A stretch of 64,000 nucleotides of DNA, taken from the NCBI GenBank assembly GCA_017439345.1, contig JAFSJJ010000005.1, positions 1 to 64,000 of the forward strand. The letters are read 5' to 3'. The notes beneath the pieces were generated by a model. That model saw only the letters and a program-made list of their open reading frames with translations, searched no databases and was not told the DNA's origin. Of the stretch, positions 22,793 to 55,075 are shown piece after piece. The position numbers and the translations under genes are program-made. Position 1 is the first letter of the stretch. Each line of letters begins with the position of its first letter. Source of the DNA: Synergistaceae bacterium (GTDB lineage: Bacteria > Synergistota > Synergistia > Synergistales > Aminobacteriaceae).

Positions 22793-24082
22793 ATGGTCAT
22801 CAATAATAATATTTCGTCACTGATAGCGTATAACTCTCTTAATGCTGTAAATAAAAAGCTCCAGAAAAGTATTAATTCGCTCTCAACGGGACTCAGAATT
22901 AATAACTCTTCAGATGATGCGGCAGGCTTTGCTATAAGTGAGAAGATTCGCTCTCAGACATCAGGACTAGCAATCGCAATGAGAAATTCACAGGATGGAG
23001 TCTCGATGCTCCAGACGGCAGAAGGTGCGCTCGGCGATATTAATTCTATGCTTCAAAGAATGCGTGAACTTGCTGTTCAGGCCAGTAATGACTCGCTGAC
23101 TTCAAACGATAGAAATTATATTCAGCTTGAGATTAACGAGTTACGTGATCAGGTTAACAGAATCGCAGGGACAACTCAATTTAACAGGAAGCGCATTCTT
23201 GATGGCAGCTCAGGGGCGTTATGGTCATCGAGCGATTTGAACGTTAAGGCAAGAATTAACAGCGGCTTGACTTACAAAGACCAGTTCGGCCAGAATATAA
23301 GCAGTGAAGGCAATTACAGAATCGAAGTCAGCACAGAACCGTGCAAAGCTCAAGTTCAGACGAGCAGTATCATGAACGTATTGAAAACAGAAACTGACTA
23401 CGGCAAAGACGCAATCCCGGAAGAAATTACTGAAACTGTAAGAACTGTTCAGACTCAGACTGTTTACATGACCGAAGAACGTTTGAACGAGACAGTCATC
23501 ACAGAAGAAGAGCCTTATACGATATATATAAACGGTTCGGACTATGATAACTCTATACCTGTTGATAACGCAACTAACGCACTCAACGAGGAAGAAGTTG
23601 AAGAGATAAGAGCTAAATGGTTCTATGATGCAGGGAAGAACGCTTTACGAATTACCAGCAGCGGAACGTTTAACATAGCAGGCAGAGTTGATTCTGCGGG
23701 GAACTCTATCCCTACTAGAACAAGAATTCTTGTAGATCCAGGCCTTGAGGACGTAAATATTTTTTTGACTGACGTAGATATAGAATATTCACTAGGCCCG
23801 GCAATGGAAACTTCAGGCTCAAAAGTCAACGTTTATCTTTCAGGGACAAATAAATTACGAAGCTCAGGCTACTATAACTACAACGAACCTGCGGGCATTC
23901 AGTGCTTGAATATCGAAGGCTCTCCTGCATCGTTGACTATAAGCAGTGCTGACGGAGACGGCCAGACAACGGGAACTCTTGACGTAATGGGTGCAGGGTG
24001 CGGAGCTGGAATCGGAGGACCATGCACGTTTTCTAACAGCTTGATTTCTCAGGCAGACGGCAATACGGGCACTATATATTAA
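22793..24082 (+). CDS. Giant flagellin, N-terminal part (ends at frameshift)
   Basis: The N-terminal 429 residues of a flagellin. Residues 1-140 are a canonical D0/D1 rod: MVINNNISSLIAYNSL, NSLSTGLRINNSSDDAAGFAISEKIRSQ and MLQRMRELAVQASNDS. After residue about 190 the sequence leaves the flagellin family and becomes an adhesin-like module (ILVDPGLEDVNIFLTDVDIE, then GAGCGAGIGG). The frame ends at TAA 24080-24082, immediately after a (TA)3 tract, while the same domain continues in another frame. I chose ATG 22793 because flagellins begin exactly there. A frame open from 22742 adds 17 residues unlike any flagellin. As sequenced, this makes a truncated protein without the C-terminal D0/D1 needed for assembly. 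Confidence 0.85.
   Translation: MVINNNISSLIAYNSLNAVNKKLQKSINSLSTGLRINNSSDDAAGFAISEKIRSQTSGLAIAMRNSQDGVSMLQTAEGALGDINSMLQRMRELAVQASNDSLTSNDRNYIQLEINELRDQVNRIAGTTQFNRKRILDGSSGALWSSSDLNVKARINSGLTYKDQFGQNISSEGNYRIEVSTEPCKAQVQTSSIMNVLKTETDYGKDAIPEEITETVRTVQTQTVYMTEERLNETVITEEEPYTIYINGSDYDNSIPVDNATNALNEEEVEEIRAKWFYDAGKNALRITSSGTFNIAGRVDSAGNSIPTRTRILVDPGLEDVNIFLTDVDIEYSLGPAMETSGSKVNVYLSGTNKLRSSGYYNYNEPAGIQCLNIEGSPASLTISSADGDGQTTGTLDVMGAGCGAGIGGPCTFSNSLISQADGNTGTIY
24073..24078 (+). repeat. (TA)3 tract at the flagellin frameshift
   Basis: TATATA sits exactly where the reading frame is lost. Adding one TA unit would turn the early stop into an in-frame continuation reading ATA TAT ATT AAA GGC GGA. 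Removing two units would also restore the frame. Confidence 0.6.
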
Positions 24083-25952
24083 AGGCGGAACAATAAGAGC
24101 TCAAGGCAGCGATGACGGAGCAGGCATAGGCTCAGGAGGATGTTACGCAACTCCGCAATTTTTAGGGAAACCAGATCCAAAAGTTTTTGTCAGAATCGAC
24201 GGCGGTGATGTAACTGCAATAGGCGGAAGAATGGCAGCAGGTATAGGCAGCGGAAACGGCAGACGAAATTATAATTGCGTAAACAGCATAAGCATCACAG
24301 GGGGAACTGTCAACGCTCAGGGAGGTCAAGGCGGTGCAGCAGGAATCGGAGGAGGTTATCAAGGCAACAGCGGGCTTATATTAATAGACAATACTCAGGC
24401 AATAGGACGAGGCCAAAACGGTTTATTGGGCGGCAGTAATGACATGGTAATTTACAGCGAATTTGAACGCGACTTGAGACCAGATGTCCCTGACAAACCG
24501 CAAATCAATTATCAATCTACAGTGTATATTCCTGAAGTCGAGACATATTCGGTACAAGTTCAGACTTTTATAGATACTACACGGACAAGAAGAGTCACTC
24601 CTCCGCCGAGTCTTGAAAACGAACTTGAAAATGTAACGCTTAATCAGTCAAACGGAGTCGAGTCTCTCAGGGCTAACGGTCTTCCTGCCGGAACTTACAC
24701 GGTCAAGACTGCGGAAAGCTATAATAATGTTCAGGCAAATTTGACAGCTTCATACGGTTTTGCTTCGAGTCCTGATAATTTCTTGAGTATCGATGCAGGA
24801 GACAACGCGGGCTTAAGCAGCTTAATCAATAACGCAAATATCTTGTTTGAAGTTACAGATGTTGACGGCTCAAACGGTTTAGTTACACTTAGGGCAACGG
24901 CCAATATCTTGAATCCTGACGGCACTCAGACGAGGCATATTGTACGCGAAAATTTGACTCTCAGAGAAGGAGACTCAACGGCTTTAAGCGGCTTAAATCT
25001 CATGGGTGAAGGTGTTGACTTTGAAATAGAAAACGCATCACCAGCAGCAAGAATTAATCTTTCAAGCGGAGCAGCTCAAAATTTCTCAGTCGGCAATAAA
25101 TTCGTCTATAATCTTACGGCTAACGTAATTTCAGAATTCCCCCGTACAATTGAAATCTCAGGGACTCAAAATCCTGAATGGACTCTTAACTGGGGCAGTG
25201 ATGTAACCCGCGAACCTGTAAGATACGGCATTGATTCACTGTCAGTTACTAACTCTGAGCTTACATTCAGCAATTTTTATCTCAACGAGTCCGACGGCAC
25301 AGTTTACGAGGGCGATATAGTTCTTACTACTAACGATAATGCATTTCAGGACGGCAGTATCTTAGCTGAATTCGATGCTCTGAGAGACAATCCTGTAACT
25401 ACGAGTTATTACACATCTGCTGACGAAAGCACTAGATTAAGCGAAATTTCAGGCTTCTACAATTCTGACGGAGTGTTCATGCTCGCTAACCCTCAGACTT
25501 TGACGATAACACAGGGCAGCGGTCAGAGTGCTTCAATAACTATTTACTCCGGCGATACAATAGGGGATATCCGCGAGAAACTTAACGACGCAATAGCAAA
25601 TGGTCTCGGCCAAGCAAGATATACTGATTCAAATAATAATTTCGTGAGCTTCGTAACTGATGCCCAGAATCAGGGACTAGAGTCAGTTGCAGGGACGTTC
25701 GTAATTCGTTCAGCAATTCCAGGCCGAACCGGTGAACTGTCCTTTTCCGGTGATGAAGATTTATTAAATGCATTGGGATTAAATACGATTCAGGCTTCAA
25801 GCGAGAGCACTTACACAGCAAACGTATATGAAGCTCATTCGGGGAAACCTATAGCTCTTAACGTGAAATCTTATGATAATGAATTCCCGAGTCTTATTCC
25901 ACCTGAAATTGATATAAGAGTCGATGCCATAGCAGGACTTAAATCAACATAG
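24081..25952 (+). pseudogene. Giant flagellin, middle part (adhesin-like insert)
   Basis: The continuation of the flagellin in the other frame, about 620 residues up to an amber codon at 25950-25952. It opens with a Gly-rich repeat module: IKGGTIRAQG, DDGAGIGSGGC, GRMAAGIGSGNG, ISITGGTVNAQGG, AAGIGGGYQG. This is the GAGIGGG beta-helix style seen in adhesins of gut bacteria. Further on, several beta-rich segments resemble flagellin D2/hook-IN modules (for example FRSAIPGRTGELSFSG-like text and ESTYTANVYEAHSGKPIAL). An internal ATG at 24231 is in frame, but I see no reason to think translation starts there. Confidence 0.75.
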
Positions 25953-26558: not shown

Positions 26559-29500
26559 TTATCTTTTCTTTCTGAATGCCTTAAAGCTGCTCAGTAATAA
26601 CGCAAACGTTATCAAGCCGAGTCCCGTGTTGCAGCCGCCGCTTGAAGAAGTCATTATATTATTTCCGCTGATGCCTTCACTGTTCGCAGAGTCAAACGTC
26701 AAGACTTCAGCTTCTTCCCATTCATCACCGTCCGCAGATTTCTTAACGGTTATCTCAAAGTCTCCTTTAGGTGTCAAGCCTGCTATTGAGCTTACTGTTA
26801 CAATAGCCTCTTTGCCGTAGTTGCTGGGTGTAAATTCGTCCTCGCTGACAGTCTGAAGGGTAATATCAAGATAATCTCTGTCATCTGAGGCAGCATTATC
26901 CGCGTCAGACGTTAAAGCACTATCTTTCTTTACGCTCGAAATTATCCAGAAAACATTTTCATTTGCCCTGAGAGTGTAAGTTTTCGTTGCTGAGGTTGAA
27001 ACTATATTGTCAGGAATTTCCTCAAGTTCAAAATTAGGATCTTCGCCCTCGTAAAATTCTTCGTCAGAGGAAAGTATTTCGTCTTCAGTAATATTCTTTA
27101 TTCCGAACGTGATTAAATCTGCCTTAGCTGTTATATTTTCTGCATCTTTTATTAACTCTGCCGGCGAGATGGTGAATTTAACCTGGTTGTTTCCGTTGAA
27201 GAGTGCAATATCCTGCAGCATAAATACGTCCTCTACATCTTCGAAACTGAGATCATCGAGATTAACTATAGTATTAATACTTGCACCTGGAATTTTCTGC
27301 TTCCCTGACTGCGTTAATATATAGCCGACAAAGAAAGAATACGGGGTTTCAGGGCCGTTATAATTGAAATTCGCCGTTATAGGTACAAATGATTCGTCTT
27401 TATGCTCGAGAATGAAAGCTGCCATATCGTTTATTCTGCTGCCGTCAGCGTCAGTGAAGTACAAAGGAGTTAGGCTTACTGCGTCAGATGCATTTGCGCT
27501 GATTGACACTTCAGGATCACCAACATTATAGACGTAGAACGGATAAAAGCCCGTGTTATTTCCGCCGTAATCGTTAATCCTGCCGCTTGAGTAACGCGCC
27601 TCGTGAACTTCGTCTATATTATTTCCGGAGTCAACTTCGACATAGAGATAATATGCTTTCTTAGTTGTTGTAGAAGATGTGAGATTCGGTGTCCAGTTGA
27701 ATACTGCCCAGCCCTTGTTATTATTCTTGTCGTTGTTCCAGCCGCCGAGAGTCACGGTTACTTCTCCAATCTTGTGCTTGTCATTCTCTGTTATAGAAGA
27801 AAGATTGTTTATATTATCTATCCATGAGAGTTTGACTGTGAAATTTCCTGTATCCTTGAAGCTGGCGTTGTACAGAGGTACCCGAATTTCATAATTCTGT
27901 CCGTTCGCAAGCCTGTTATCTGTTAAGAAAGCAAAATCCGGAGCGTAGAATTTAATTCCCCTGATCTTCATTGCTGTCTCATCGTCAGTGTTAGCCCTGA
28001 AAGTGCTGCCGTCCTTAACGAACTTCAACGGAAGGTATAAAGCAGGGTCGGACTTCTGTTGATATAGACTGCTGCTGCGCCATAATTTAGCATTATTAGT
28101 GAGTTCTACAGCTGTTGCAAACGTCATAGCTCCTTCTTTTGCGACAAACGGCTGCATTTTGACCGTATAATTTGCTGCCTGCATAGATGTAAGATTTGAG
28201 CTGCCCATTAAACTGTAGCTGATTTTTTCGGTCTTGTTGTATTCCTTCGAGAACGTTTTCGGGTTATCACTGTCAGGCATTTTTATTCCTGTGGCTTTGT
28301 CTCCGTTAAAGAGCCTGTCAAAGAAACATACAGTTGAAGTAAACCCGCTCGGAGTAACTTTTGTTTCGGTGTGCTGCATATTACTCGCAGCTTTTGTGAA
28401 AGTAATTCCCGAAATGTCTGACGCGCTTCCGAATGTCCAAGTGTTCTCACCTGCGAGAAGTCCTGCCTCGTTATAACCTTCGACATCTGCAACGTGGGGC
28501 GGATATGAGAAGAAGTTACCCTCTTCATGAAGCGGTTGATACACAGAATCAGCTACTGAAGTTGACGTGTTAAGCGCAGAGTTTTCGCTCATTGTGAACG
28601 TTATGAAAAGCTCTTTGTCTCCCTTAACGGTGCCGGGGTCTTCAATTTGTGTAGAGTCAATTCTAGGTCCAAAAGCAAGCCACGTCGGGAGGGGTCTAGT
28701 CAGAACAGGATAACGCCATATATGCCTTGCAGTGTTGGTGAATAAAATTGCATCGTGAGTCGTTGCTGTAACGTTCTTGTCAATCGTTGTCGTTGATGTA
28801 TCACCGTTGGTATTCTCGTTAATTCTGTCGACTCTGTCCGTAAAGAAGTCCATCAAATCAGTAAGTCCTTCTGTCGGGCTGTCAGGCTTCCAGACCATGT
28901 TTTTCTTTTCTTCTGTAGTCATATTATCGATTTTTATACCGTGAGCAATACCGCCGATTGCAGATGCAAATCCTACAAGCCCCTTTACTGTTGCAAATGT
29001 TCCCTGTACTTTCTCGTCAGTTCCGGTAGGGTCAGCCGCAAACATTGTTTCAACAGACTGGCTCAAGTCCTGCTTTACTGTGTTTGTAGTGGAATCAGTC
29101 GTCGTTTTTCCGTATTCAACAGTCATATTACCGCCGTTAGAAGCATCGCTGTACGTGAAGTTTACGGGCTGTTCAGTGAGTGCCGTTCCATTCTCGTCTA
29201 CCGTATCAACGTGATAGGGAATTGCACTAAGAGCAGCAATATAACTTCTGTTTGACTTCTTCCTGATGTGTACAGGTGTACCGAGTTCAACACCCTCGCT
29301 TGCAAAATCAGCAGCTATGAGTCCGCGCCATGTCCCTCCGGATTTAGTATCCTGAATTGCGATTTTCCCATCTTCGAAACCGTCAAAAATTTTATTGCCT
29401 TTATCATCGGCTGTAACTTTTGTCTTGAAGATCGTTACGCAGTCAATACCGCCCGGCTTCTTCCACGCTACAGCAATATCATCAACTGTCTTGAATGTGC

Positions 29501-31203
29501 CGAGTGTACCAGTGAAAGCCCCTGCAGCTATCGAGAAATCAGTCAGAGCATACATGTGTGTTATGCCCTCAGGATTTATCCCCTCGTTCTTGTTTAAGTG
29601 CTCTAATGCTGGTACGTCTGTCCAAAAGCAGAAGCGATCCAAGTGAGGCTGATCCATAAGGAGCCTTTTGTCTTTGTCCTGAGCGAGGTCATACAGCGGA
29701 CCGTAATTATATTTTGAGCTTTCGCCTCCGCCCTTTACGTGAGCATCATCATGAACCGGTGTCAGCGGATTCTTCGAATCTGAACTATTATCGAATTTCC
29801 AGACAGTAAGATGCGGGTAAGCGCAGAACTCATCTTCTCTGGAAGGGAATTGTCCTTCGGCGTTCCACACCTTACGATGAAAATATCCGAGCAGAAGAGT
29901 AACAATCTCGTCCTTGCCATCGCCGTCGAGGTCAGCCGCAGCCGCTCTCAATCCTGCAACTCCAGCAACTTTTGCGCAGGGATTTAAATCGAAAGTACCA
30001 TTGATAAGCTCTTCTTTATTGTATGCCTTAGCGGTCTCTGTTGTGTCGAAGTCACGTTTCTCGGCGTTCCACTTATGAATTTTACAGTGTATTGCGCCTG
30101 TCATTGGTCCGTTCGGCCAGCCCTTTTCGTTCGCGAGGCTTGGGGCTCTGACTGGAATTTTGAAAAGTAAAGCAATTTCGCTCGTGCCGTCTCCGTCAAA
30201 ATCTCCTGCTACCATATCTGTTACCGGCTGGCTTTCAAGATCATTCCCCCACTGATCTGTGGCGAAAACGTGAATCCCGCTTGGATCGCCAAGAGACTTC
30301 AGCTCCAATTTTCCGTTTGAGAAAATCAATCTGTAAACGAAAATATAAATATCATTTCTCGTGTTAATCATCAGGGCTGCTTCGTTGTTATGTTTATCTC
30401 CGTCAAAATCTCCGACTGCAAGCGATACGATTTTCATATCACCTCTGAAAGGAGTTTCGTTCGTCAATGCAGTTAAAGGCTCCTGAGTCATTTTGCCTTC
30501 ACTGTCAGCGTTGAGTGCGAAAAATTCAAGCCGTATTGCCTTATCAAGCTGAGACGGGTTATTCGGACCTGAAGCAGCTACAAAAATTTCACGATCATAG
30601 CCCTTGACTTCCATAACACCTGTTCCAAATACCTGAACTACAAAACCTGAGTGCACATTTGAAAACGCAGGCAGTGTATATTCTCCGAAATCCGAAATTT
30701 GGACGGAATTAACAAGCTCGCTCGGTGTCGTTCCTGTTGTATGAGATGTCCTGTTATTAGAAAGAGTCTTGAAGTAATACTTAGCTTCGCCGTTGGGAGC
30801 TAAATTATGATACATCAATGCCCGTTTGCCGTTGTAGAGTCTGCGCGATACAGCAGGTCTGAGATAGTGAGGCTCCTGTGCGCTCCAAGAAAACTGGCGT
30901 GAAGCATTTGAATTATGAAAAATTGTCCGTGTCGATAATGAAGTGTCTTTGCCAAACGTCGTAGCGAATACATCAACATCATCAATTTTGTCTCCGCCTC
31001 TGATGGTGATTAGACCCTTCTTAGCGAGTGTGAGTTCACCGTTCACTTCTTTGACAACGTCGTCAACATCTCCGATTGCTTTACCGTTGATTGTCTGCGC
31101 TGCCTCAGAAATTACCCCCCCCCCCCATGTAGGGAGAAATACTTAATAGAGCAGATAATACTAACACAGAGAAAAACTTAAGATTAACTTTAACTTTTTG
31201 CAT
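26559..31203 (-). CDS. Large Synergist-CTERM surface protein, out of frame at a G12 tract
   Basis: A surface protein of about 1,540 residues. The main frame (26559-31046 and some way upstream) has FG-GAP/VCBS-like loops (VGDFDGDKHNNEA, AGDFDGDGTSEIALLF, AADLDGDGKDEIVTLL), a long beta-rich middle, and ends in GGCNTGLGLITFALLLSS plus a basic tail, a Synergist-CTERM-type sorting signal. Its own signal peptide starts at ATG 31203 after an AGGAGG site (MQKVKVNLKFFSVLVLSALL). That frame meets a run of 12 G residues and stops 4 codons past the expected join. With 11 G the two frames fuse and read through MGGGVISEAAQ. In the state shown the gene should be off. The alternative start GTG 31046 would give an unexported protein and has no good ribosome-binding site. 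Confidence 0.85.
31115..31126 (-). repeat. G12 homopolymer in the coding region (candidate phase switch)
   Basis: Twelve consecutive C on the plus strand (G on the coding strand) lie between the signal-peptide frame and the body of the surface protein. 11 or 14 G puts them in frame, while 12 (as here) or 13 does not. Confidence 0.9.
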
Positions 31204-51514: not shown

Positions 51515-51868
51515 TTATGCAAACTTTCTGCGTTCTTTGATCCTTGCAGCCTTGCCGCTGAGATTGCGCAGATAATACAACTTAGCTCTTCTGACCTTGC
51601 CCTGACGAACAACTTCTACTTTGTCAATCGATGGGCAGTGAACCGGAAATATTCTCTCTACTCCGACTCCGTTAGAGATCTTGCGGACTGTGAATGTCTC
51701 GTCAAGTCCTCCGTGCTGCTTGGCTATGACGATGCCCTCAAAGACCTGAATACGTTCGCGGGTTCCTTCTTTGATCTTAACGTGTACCCTCAGAGTGTCG
51801 CCGGGTCTGAAGTCCGGTAATGCTGCTTCTCTGTAATACTTTTTCTGTACTAAATCTACTGCGTTCAA
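51515..51868 (-). CDS. rplS: 50S ribosomal protein L19
   Basis: A 117-residue ribosomal protein at the 30S-50S interface. The sequence [37 protein letters not shown] is the family signature, followed by [58 protein letters not shown]. The gene is complete and is the last in the SRP/translation operon, 42 bases after trmD. Confidence 0.97.
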
Positions 51869-51910: not shown

Positions 51911-53047
51911 TTAACGTTTCCCTAAAAATCTGTCCAGAGCTGTCCCGATTAATATATTTAATGAGACGTTATTTATTTCGCTCTCGTAAAGATAGCTTGA
52001 TACGCCCTCGAGTGCTTCTGATTCTAATTCCGACTCGTCCTGAGCAAAGATAAATAATATGCTGCCTTCGTGTTCAAGACATCTGCGTTTGACTTCAAGA
52101 CTATGAAGAGAATTATTTTTACTGCCTGAAAATATCTTGACGATTAATAAATTATCTTCACTCAAAATTTTATCAAGACTGCCCAGTACTTTAGCTTCAG
52201 GATATAAATTCTTTATCTTCTCTCTAAGTTCATGACTCTTAGCAAGAACATAAGACCTCGATAATTCATAAGCCTCACATAATGCGCCTAGACTCTCAAG
52301 CTCTATATTCTCATCATGAGCAATAATTAAAACTCTAACTTTATCAGCTAAATAATCACGTATCGAAGCTCTAGAAATTAAATCAGGTCTGCGAGTCAGA
52401 GTCCTCTTTACTGCCTCACGTCTCCGCCAGTGTGAAACCTGCTTATCATTGCCGCTAAGTAACACTTCAGGAACTCGAAGCCCTTCCCACTCAAACGGCC
52501 TTGTGTAATTCGGATTATCAAGCATTCCCCGATAAAACGAGTCTTCGATTACTGCTTGAGTCTTTCCTACTACACCGGGGACTAATCTCGACATCGAGTC
52601 AATCATTATCATTGCAGGAAGCTCGCCGCCTGTTAATACGCAGTCACCTATTGAGACCTCAAGATTTACATATTTCTCTACAAAGCGTTCATCAAGACCT
52701 TCATAATGTCCGCAGAAAATTATAACGTGTTCCTGATGTGCAAGGGACTCTATTAGCTCCTGATTAATCAAGACTCCCTGCGGTGAAGGATATACGACAA
52801 AAGGCTTTATATTCTTTGACTCAAGATTTGCGTAATCTAATGCTGCCTTTAACTGAGGAGCTGCGAAGACCATGCCCCCTGAGCCAAAAGCGTAATCATC
52901 GAGCTGTCTGTAATTACCCTTCCCGAAATCGCGCAGATTTATTAAATTTACCCTGAGCAGATTATTTTTCACAGCACGTCCCGGAATACTTGTATCAAGA
53001 AAATTTGCAAATAATTCCGGGAATGTCGTTATTATGCTTACGTTAAT
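51911..53047 (-). CDS. trmD: tRNA (guanine-37-N1)-methyltransferase fused to a second SPOUT domain
   Basis: TrmD methylates G37 of tRNAs. The trefoil-knot core shows DDYAFGSGGMVFAAP, VIFCGHYEGLDERF and SIGDCVLTGGELPAM, plus NPNYTRP and HWRRREAVKRT. After about residue 225 of the TrmD part, an extra domain of about 135 residues (VRVLIIAHDENIELESLGALCEAYELSRSYVL) resembles the PF09936-type RNA methyltransferase. The only ATG/GTG/TTG in frame, GTG 52972, would drop the conserved first strand. Coding continues upstream as NVSIITTFPELFANFLDTSIPGRA, back to an AUU at 53047 that sits 9 bases after AGAGGA. An in-frame TGA at 53071-53069 limits the start. I take AUU 53047 as the start. Confidence 0.85.
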   Translation of the reverse strand: MNVSIITTFPELFANFLDTSIPGRAVKNNLLRVNLINLRDFGKGNYRQLDDYAFGSGGMVFAAPQLKAALDYANLESKNIKPFVVYPSPQGVLINQELIESLAHQEHVIIFCGHYEGLDERFVEKYVNLEVSIGDCVLTGGELPAMIMIDSMSRLVPGVVGKTQAVIEDSFYRGMLDNPNYTRPFEWEGLRVPEVLLSGNDKQVSHWRRREAVKRTLTRRPDLISRASIRDYLADKVRVLIIAHDENIELESLGALCEAYELSRSYVLAKSHELREKIKNLYPEAKVLGSLDKILSEDNLLIVKIFSGSKNNSLHSLEVKRRCLEHEGSILFIFAQDESELESEALEGVSSYLYESEINNVSLNILIGTALDRFLGKR

Positions 53048-53052
53048 ATTAT

Positions 53053-53295
53053 TTAGTCCTCTAATATGTCAACATCAACCCTTTCACCGGCCTTGACTGC
53101 TGCCGCTTTGGCCAACAGCCGGATAGCGTTGATCGTTGCACCTCTCTTCCCGATTACTCTACCCACGTCCTCATGGGCAACCCGAATCAGGATTTTACTT
53201 CCGCCCCCGTCTTCACTGCACTCTACGCCGACTGAGTCTGGCTGCGTTACAAGATGTTTGACGATGAACTCTACAAGCTCTCTATAATTGACCAT
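53053..53295 (-). CDS. khpA: KH-domain RNA-binding protein
   Basis: An 80-residue single KH domain protein of the KhpA (YlqC) family. The RNA-binding GxxG loop is VIGKRGATINAIR, and the N-terminal LVEFIVKHLVTQPDSV is typical. These small proteins often form dimers with KhpB and bind cell-wall and small RNAs. It sits between rpsP and trmD, the standard position, and its stop lies 5 bases ahead of the proposed trmD AUU start. The expected rimM gene between them is absent. Confidence 0.93.
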   Translation of the reverse strand: MVNYRELVEFIVKHLVTQPDSVGVECSEDGGGSKILIRVAHEDVGRVIGKRGATINAIRLLAKAAAVKAGERVDVDILED

Positions 53296-53401: not shown

Positions 53402-53671
53402 CTAATTTGCATCCTTGTTCTTGAATTTGTCCCAGATTCCCTGCTTCTTTAAAAGCCCGCGCGCCGTGTCTGAAGGTAATGCACCGTTCTTCAGCCAGTG
53501 AAGAGCACGCTCCTCGTTGATATTAATTGCTGCTGGATCCGTCATAGGGTTATATGTGCCTATAAGCTCGATAAATTTTCCGTCTCTCGGCGAACGTTCA
53601 TCCGCTACGACCAATCTGTAAAAAGGAGCTTTCTTTCTGCCCTGACGCGACAAACGAATCTTTACCGCCAT
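53402..53671 (-). CDS. rpsP: 30S ribosomal protein S16
   Basis: An 89-residue ribosomal protein that supports 30S assembly. The signature is the start [42 protein letters not shown], followed by [24 protein letters not shown]. Complete. It lies 69 bases after ffh and 106 bases before khpA. The latter gap has no evident terminator. Confidence 0.97.
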
Positions 53672-53740: not shown

Positions 53741-55075
53741 TTATCTTCCAAAGCCGAACAGTGATTTCAATCTTCTAGTGCCGCCGGAACCTGAGAAAGA
53801 TTTAAATAATTTCTTCATCTGTTCATACTGCGCTAATAACTGATTTACCATCTGAACAGAAGTTCCAGAACCCTGTGCTATGCGCCGCCGTCTTGAGCCT
53901 TTTATTATTCTGGGATTGCGTCTCTCCTCCGGCGTCATTGACTGGATTATAGCTTTGTTCTTTCGCAATATAGAAGCATCTGCGTCTTCAGCCTTGAAAT
54001 TTTTTATCTTATCTAAGCCCGGAATCATGCTTGCGATCTTATCAATCGGCCCGAGTTTCTCTAGCTGCTCAAATTGCTTTAACAACGTCTCAAGATTAAA
54101 CTCTTTGCCTAATTTTCCGGGTGATTTGACTGCGCTTTCGTCAATACCTGCTGCCTTGACCTTCTCGACCAAGCCCTGAATGTCGCCCATTCCCATAATT
54201 CTGCCGGCCATTCTTTCAGGGTTAAAGACTTCAAGAGCGTCCGTGTTCTCGCCCATTCCTGCAAACTTAACAGGGACTCCGGTTACTGCACGGATAGCAA
54301 GAGCACTGCCTCCCCTTGAGTCTCCGTCCATTTTCGTCAAGATCAAGCCTGTAAGATTCAATAACTCATGAAATGATTTTGCAGCGTTGACAGCCTCTTG
54401 ACCCATCATTGAGTCAACAACTAATAATTTCTCGTGAGGGGGCATGACCTGAGCAATATTCTTTAACTCCGTCATAAGCTCTTCATCAATGTGAAGTCTT
54501 CCTGCTGTATCGAGAATAATAACGTCGTTCATGTGGGACTCTGCGAACTTGGCCGCGTTTCTGACAACTTTTAGGACATCCGAATCTTTCTCGCTCTGGG
54601 GGCCGTAAAATGCGACTTTCGCACCTTCAGCTAAGACTCGTAACTGCTCAACAGCTGCCGGTCTGCGTAAATCACATGCTACGACTAGGGGATTATGAGA
54701 ATTTTTCAGGTATCTAGCAAGTTTTACTGTTGTAGTTGTCTTTCCTGAACCCTGAAGACCTGCCATTAATATAACGGTCGGGGGCTTGGGTGAGATAATA
54801 AGAGGAGTGCTTTTGCCCATCATCGAGATTAGCTCTTCATAGACGATGGCTGCAATTCTTTCATTAGCTGTGATTGACTCTAAGACTTCAAGACTTGTAG
54901 CTCTTTCACGAATTTTTGCAATTAAGTCTTTGGCAACGCGAAAATCAACGTCAGCTTCAAGCAATGATCTTCGGACTTCACGCAATGCATTATCAACGTC
55001 TTCTGCCGAGAGTCTGCCCTTACTGCTTAGTTTTGAGAACACGGCCGCAAGTTTTTCCTTCAGTGAGTCAAACAT
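53741..55075 (-). CDS. ffh: Signal recognition particle protein
   Basis: The SRP54 GTPase that directs nascent membrane proteins to the translocon. The N-domain is followed by the G-domain with GLQGSGKTTTTVKLARYL (G1), DLRRPAAVEQL, DTAGRLHIDEELM (G3) and TKMDGDSRGGSAL (G4/insertion). The C-terminal M-domain (after about residue 300) has the Met-rich helices (MIPGLDKIKNF) and RRRRIAQGSGTSVQMVNQLLAQYEQMKK for 4.5S RNA binding. It ends in a Gly-rich tail. The start overlaps ylxM by 16 bases. Confidence 0.97.
   Translation of the reverse strand: MFDSLKEKLAAVFSKLSSKGRLSAEDVDNALREVRRSLLEADVDFRVAKDLIAKIRERATSLEVLESITANERIAAIVYEELISMMGKSTPLIISPKPPTVILMAGLQGSGKTTTTVKLARYLKNSHNPLVVACDLRRPAAVEQLRVLAEGAKVAFYGPQSEKDSDVLKVVRNAAKFAESHMNDVIILDTAGRLHIDEELMTELKNIAQVMPPHEKLLVVDSMMGQEAVNAAKSFHELLNLTGLILTKMDGDSRGGSALAIRAVTGVPVKFAGMGENTDALEVFNPERMAGRIMGMGDIQGLVEKVKAAGIDESAVKSPGKLGKEFNLETLLKQFEQLEKLGPIDKIASMIPGLDKIKNFKAEDADASILRKNKAIIQSMTPEERRNPRIIKGSRRRRIAQGSGTSVQMVNQLLAQYEQMKKLFKSFSGSGGTRRLKSLFGFGR

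Follow-up and report, generated by a model that had tools for sequence, protein, structure and literature searches.

Where does translation of trmD begin in the minus-strand gene cluster ffh, rpsP, khpA, trmD, rplS of this uncultured genus of Synergistaceae? In the window (the whole stretch of 64,000 nucleotides that was analysed, which belongs to a 98% complete assembly of 2.54 Mb, here termed G000), the listing of open reading frames opens the gene at GTG 52972, and the 25 codons that would precede this GTG encode, for example, MNVSIITTFPELF.... Gene finders by design shorten or miss AUU-type starts, and to our knowledge very few genes with such starts are documented. The named relatives of the window genome are ruminant-gut MAGs of Synergistaceae or Synergistales. 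The evidence laid out below makes it almost certain that trmD translation starts at AUU 53047. The features needed for the argument are as follows, all on the minus strand:

51911..53047, minus: trmD, tRNA (guanine-N1)-methyltransferase, 378 aa if read from AUU (TIGR00088, E 2e-75; PF01746; PDB TrmD chains)
53045..53047, minus: ATT (AUU), predicted initiation codon of trmD at the Met1 position of TrmD, ATT or ATA in congeners
52970..52972, minus: GTG, first canonical start in frame (codon 26), rejected as start from the congener positions and its location inside the TrmD fold
53069..53071, minus: in-frame TGA closing the trmD frame upstream, read from the sequence
53057..53062, minus: AGAGGA, weak Shine-Dalgarno (SD) sequence of trmD inside the 3' end of khpA (duplex -5.8 kcal/mol)
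53053..53295, minus: khpA, KH-domain RNA-binding protein (PF13083, E 5e-23), TAA stop at 53055-53053, 5 nt before AUU
53402..53671, minus: rpsP (S16), ATG start, strong SD (PF00886)
51515..51868, minus: rplS (L19), TTG start, strong SD (PF01245)
53741..55075, minus: ffh (SRP54), upstream neighbour in the cluster (PF00448/PF02978)

The 5' end of trmD in the window

The original prediction held that trmD starts at an AUU and that no ATG, GTG or TTG is present in frame upstream of GTG 52972. Reading the frame back confirms the latter point: from TGA (53071) it passes through CAT ATT AGA GGA CTA AAT AAT to ATT (53047) and on through AAC GTA AGC ATA ATA ACG ACA TTC CCG GAA to GTG (52972), and none of the three canonical start codons was found between TGA 53071-53069 and that GTG. 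The predicted spacing is likewise correct, with AGAGGA (53062-53057) 9 nt from the A of ATT and the in-frame TGA beginning 24 nt upstream of ATT.

The protein matches TIGR00088 over its full length (253 bits versus a cut-off of 195) and reaches 172.7 bits with PF01746. Profile position 2 of TIGR00088 lies at 53044, which places position 1 on ATT 53047. When TrmD is read from this codon, its residue numbers coincide with those of solved TrmD chains that are numbered from near Met1 (3 to 3 in 4mcb_A and 2 to 2 in 5zhi_A). Since the profile and the solved-chain alignments both fall at ATT 53047, we assign this codon to Met1 of TrmD. A second in-frame ATT, at 53065, falls within khpA, ahead of the SD, at a position that is not conserved. 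The N-terminus of the AUU-started protein should read (f)Met-Asn-Val-Ser-Ile-Ile; the predicted N-terminal tryptic peptide is MNVSIITTFPELFANFLDTSIPGR, and its predicted counterpart in congeners is, for example, MNVSIITAFPELF....

At its other end the protein is extended by about 150 C-terminal residues (51911-52369, minus strand) that have no Pfam match even at an E value of 5. The solved TrmD chain 8b1n (436 aa) is comparably long to the window TrmD with this extension.

Conservation of the start codon in the genus

The original prediction would be undermined by a base-call error at ATT, and it pointed to conservation of AUU at the khpA-trmD junction in related genomes as a check. trmD was detected in 38 of 43 genomes of the genus, and its 5' end was read in all 38. 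Five genomes, G007, G008, G062, G066 (97% complete) and G074 (94%), gave no trmD match, which reflects either an assembly gap or true absence. ATT occupies the TrmD Met position in 31 of the 38 genomes, nearly always followed by AAC, and ATA is found there in G004 and G057. In G077 and G078, AAA ATA ATC/ATA follows directly after the khpA stop with ATA one codon downstream of the Met position, and this ATA or the next codon is the predicted start. The start in G079 is ambiguous, the sequence being divergent and containing a TTG six codons upstream that may serve as start. ATG is present at the Met position in G063 and G071 alone and in none of the 36 genomes that lack rimM. The non-canonical start is thus conserved among the relatives, with ATT in 31, ATA in four and an ambiguous codon in one of these 36. 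A sequencing error as the source of ATT is ruled out by its occurrence in 31 separate, independent assemblies.

From the upstream in-frame stop through codon 5, no canonical start exists in 34 of the 36 rimM-less genomes (in G065, codon 3 is a TTG), and upstream in the open trmD frame a canonical codon is lacking in 35, the exception being G079. The trmD frame of 12 of the 36 is closed by a stop only 0-2 codons ahead of the start. The genomes examined from other genera of the order, on the other hand, all possess a canonical trmD start at the Met position or between codons -14 and +2 (68 of 68).

How strongly the start codon is held can be judged from codon changes on the tree, which were counted for the 33 genomes with ATT or ATA at the Met position and 171 conserved codon columns. 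The start codon changed twice, both times between ATT and ATA, and the second codon once, versus a median of nine changes per conserved column; seven columns show two changes or fewer. Isoleucine codons 5 and 21 of trmD show the same degree of conservation, so that the conservation of the start codon is in part a trait of the whole initiation region and of a constraint acting on the 5' end in general. Genome-wide, isoleucine is encoded by ATT (40%), ATA (37%) and ATC (23%). Synonymous sites in trmD codons 1-13 are much more stable across the genus than those further along the gene, and no RNA structure was detected there. Taken together, ATT 53047 as the start is supported by its Met1 position, the lack of a canonical alternative, the in-frame stops of relatives, persistence in about 33 species and the few synonymous changes.

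Loss of rimM and a putative brake on TrmD synthesis

rimM, a widely conserved gene for a 30S assembly factor, is missing from G000 and from 40 of its 42 congeners (two independent profiles, TIGR02273 and PF01782); 18 of the family's 20 genera have it. Within the genus it is kept only in G063 and G071, the same two genomes that start trmD with ATG, and it directly precedes trmD in these two and in the other genera examined. In the TrmD tree, the 36 genomes without rimM group together as a single clade (support 100/99) to the exclusion of the ATG-bearing G063 and G071, and all trmD comparisons within this clade represent a single origin. The simplest history would be one loss of rimM, because of which trmD came to lie directly behind khpA with a non-canonical start that has been kept since.

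The stop codon of khpA is mostly 2-5 nt away from AUU in the 36 congeners. Duplex energies of the SD sequences amount to -5.8 kcal/mol for trmD, -13.5 for rpsP, -14.0 for khpA and -10.2 for rplS; a canonical anti-SD was assumed for these values, since a search of G000 for the 16S 3'-end pattern gave no match, the rRNA genes probably being missing from the assembly. A GAGG-type SD of -5 kcal/mol or better precedes trmD in 34 of the 36 genomes. Scores this good are reached by about 31% of random coding positions, and the SD alone is therefore poor evidence for the trmD start.

We consider it likely that the AUU start and the weak SD together bring about a low, IF3-sensitive rate of initiation that keeps TrmD scarce in comparison with S16 and L19. 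AUU 53047 would be read by the ordinary initiator tRNA, in a start region that combines a weak SD (GAGG inside khpA), a close khpA stop and a codon disfavoured by IF3; initiation would be supplied in part by ribosomes that have just ended khpA, and its low rate would leave TrmD scarce relative to the two ribosomal proteins encoded alongside it. That the yield is low, sensitive to IF3 and coupled to khpA by re-initiation is inferred from the literature, and selection for scarce TrmD is presumed. Conserved AUU/AUA starts in S. aureus give roughly 10% of the expression from AUG (PMC13009471), non-canonical starts are repressed by IF3 (PMC5472188), and IF3 also affects re-initiation downstream of a stop codon when an SD is absent (PMC2268962). 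As in the trmD operon of E. coli (rpsP-rimM-trmD-rplS), TrmD would be needed far below S16 and L19 from a shared mRNA. In E. coli, TrmD is held about 40-fold below RpsP and RplS by strong structure at the trmD start (PMC8643618); this way of lowering TrmD is not visible here since excess structure at the start was not seen, and the gene has a weak SD and AUU instead, which would serve the same purpose.

An altered initiator tRNA was rejected: a normal initiator-type anticodon arm, GGGCTCATAACCC, was found in the window genome and in most genomes of the genus. In G007 (C40:58932-58944) and G080 (C4:186484-186496) the normal initiator is accompanied by GGGCTGATAACCC, whose stem resembles that of an initiator but whose anticodon is GAU; this is perhaps just a standard tRNA-Ile. 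AUU use does not look like a general habit of the genome, since a rough scan for coding potential (427 kb, 264 genes), of low power as trmD itself scored only 3.0, yielded no clear case of another AUU-type start in a housekeeping gene. Two open frames in the window have coding-like codons ahead of their first canonical start, one of 635 codons (24045-25952, plus strand; about 50 such codons), which may be a repeat-rich gene that is frameshifted or decayed, and one of 1527 codons (26559-31142, minus strand; 32 such codons), which could represent another odd start or a frameshift.

The most serious competing view, which we regard as possible but distinctly less likely than the brake, accepts AUU as the start and takes it for a tolerated relic: the event that deleted rimM would have taken the old start codon with it, coupling to khpA would supply enough TrmD, drift would keep an isoleucine codon in place, and selection for low or IF3-controlled expression would not be involved. 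The coincidence of AUU with the loss of rimM is in line with this view, as are the short distance to the khpA stop, which re-initiation would predict, and the two ATT/ATA changes that had no visible consequence. A single substitution would, however, convert ATT into ATG, and this has happened in none of the 36 genomes although TrmD identity over them has a median of 68% and falls to 51%. The start codon is also among the slowest-changing of the conserved trmD codons, and in the genomes whose khpA stop has come to lie 11-19 nt away (G055, G060, G073, G080, G084), AUU is retained and the upstream sequence is still purine-rich.

It is very improbable that ATTAAC owes its conservation to base-pairing with GTTGAT in khpA, in an RNA hairpin masking the start, and not to AUU initiation. 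A 6-bp pairing can be formed in 29 of 33 genomes; in the four others one or two pairs are lost, and no compensatory change occurs. A covarying helix was sought at the trmD start and none was found, the consensus fold amounts to only -2.1 kcal/mol, and the start region does not fold with lower energy than dinucleotide shuffles (mean z -0.1). Lacking covariation and excess folding, a conserved start-hiding hairpin is rejected.

We give hardly any credence to translation from GTG 52972 or from a different canonical codon further downstream, with the upstream homology left untranslated, even though this is what gene finders would call and what, if true, would overturn the original prediction. The first downstream canonical codon is unconserved and scattered over codons 3-78 among the 36 congeners, and the equivalent of GTG 52972 comes first in only four of them. 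A start at codon 26 lies inside the fold and would drop residues that align to the beginning of solved TrmD chains, and the SD at this GTG (-4.0) is near the mean of random coding positions (-3.8); variable position, loss of fold residues and a background-level SD rule it out.

A KhpA-TrmD fusion through frameshifting or stop read-through, suggested by the overlap of the open trmD frame with the end of khpA in the window, has next to no likelihood: given the trmD-frame stops just before AUU in one third of the congeners and a varying frame relation, khpA and trmD sharing a frame in some species but not in others and TAA, TAG and TGA all serving as stop codons, frameshifting is ruled out and read-through very unlikely.

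Relation to known non-canonical starts

The infC gene, which encodes IF3, starts with AUU, AUA or AUC in E. coli and other bacteria and is autoregulated by IF3. The brake proposed for trmD resembles infC in that a translation-related gene carries a clade-conserved AUU start expected to be disfavoured by IF3. It differs in that the gene is trmD, so that any effect of IF3 would not close a self-loop, and in that infC itself starts with UUG in this genus. The AUU start is also shared with pcnB of E. coli, which is translationally limited (Binns and Masters 2002, as cited in PMC13009471) and whose start keeps the enzyme scarce; gene and setting are different, trmD being located among ribosomal protein genes and right behind khpA. 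Clade-conserved non-canonical starts that set low output are further known from sigR of Streptomyces, where a GTC start repressed by IF3 serves stoichiometry within the operon (PMC5472188), and from cvfC1 (AUU) and ccpN (AUA) of Staphylococcus (PMC13009471). The latter two possess extended, strong SDs, in contrast to the weak SD and nearby upstream stop of trmD. No report of an AUU-started trmD was found in the literature searched, most subscription papers being outside its reach.

infC is present in the window genome, and in the genus it has a TTG start after a strong SD (G000:C14:52000-54000, locus L157; loci L105-L134). In the sister-genus genomes G038, G041, G042, G093 and G099 no canonical infC start fits and an ATA is suitably spaced from a GGAGGT-type SD, so that infC there apparently belongs to the classic type in which IF3 regulates itself; the start in G048, G063 and G071 is ATA or an adjacent TTG. 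An IF3-disfavoured start thus seems to be absent from infC just where trmD carries one. One could imagine that IF3 control moved between the genes, infC changing from AUA to UUG while trmD, beside khpA after the loss of rimM, took up AUU/AUA. We consider such a transfer improbable; if it did occur, m1G37 methylation of tRNA would follow IF3 and the state of free 30S subunits in a lineage without RimM.

Judged from the comparative evidence, trmD of this clade would be an addition to the few genes known to have IF3-sensitive AUU starts, and its evolutionary origin is unusually clear. An AUU-type start appears to have been fixed in a core tRNA-modification gene across a clade of more than 30 species, its origin traceable to the loss of rimM, and this suggests a second, sequence-simple way to keep TrmD less abundant than the ribosomal proteins made from its operon.
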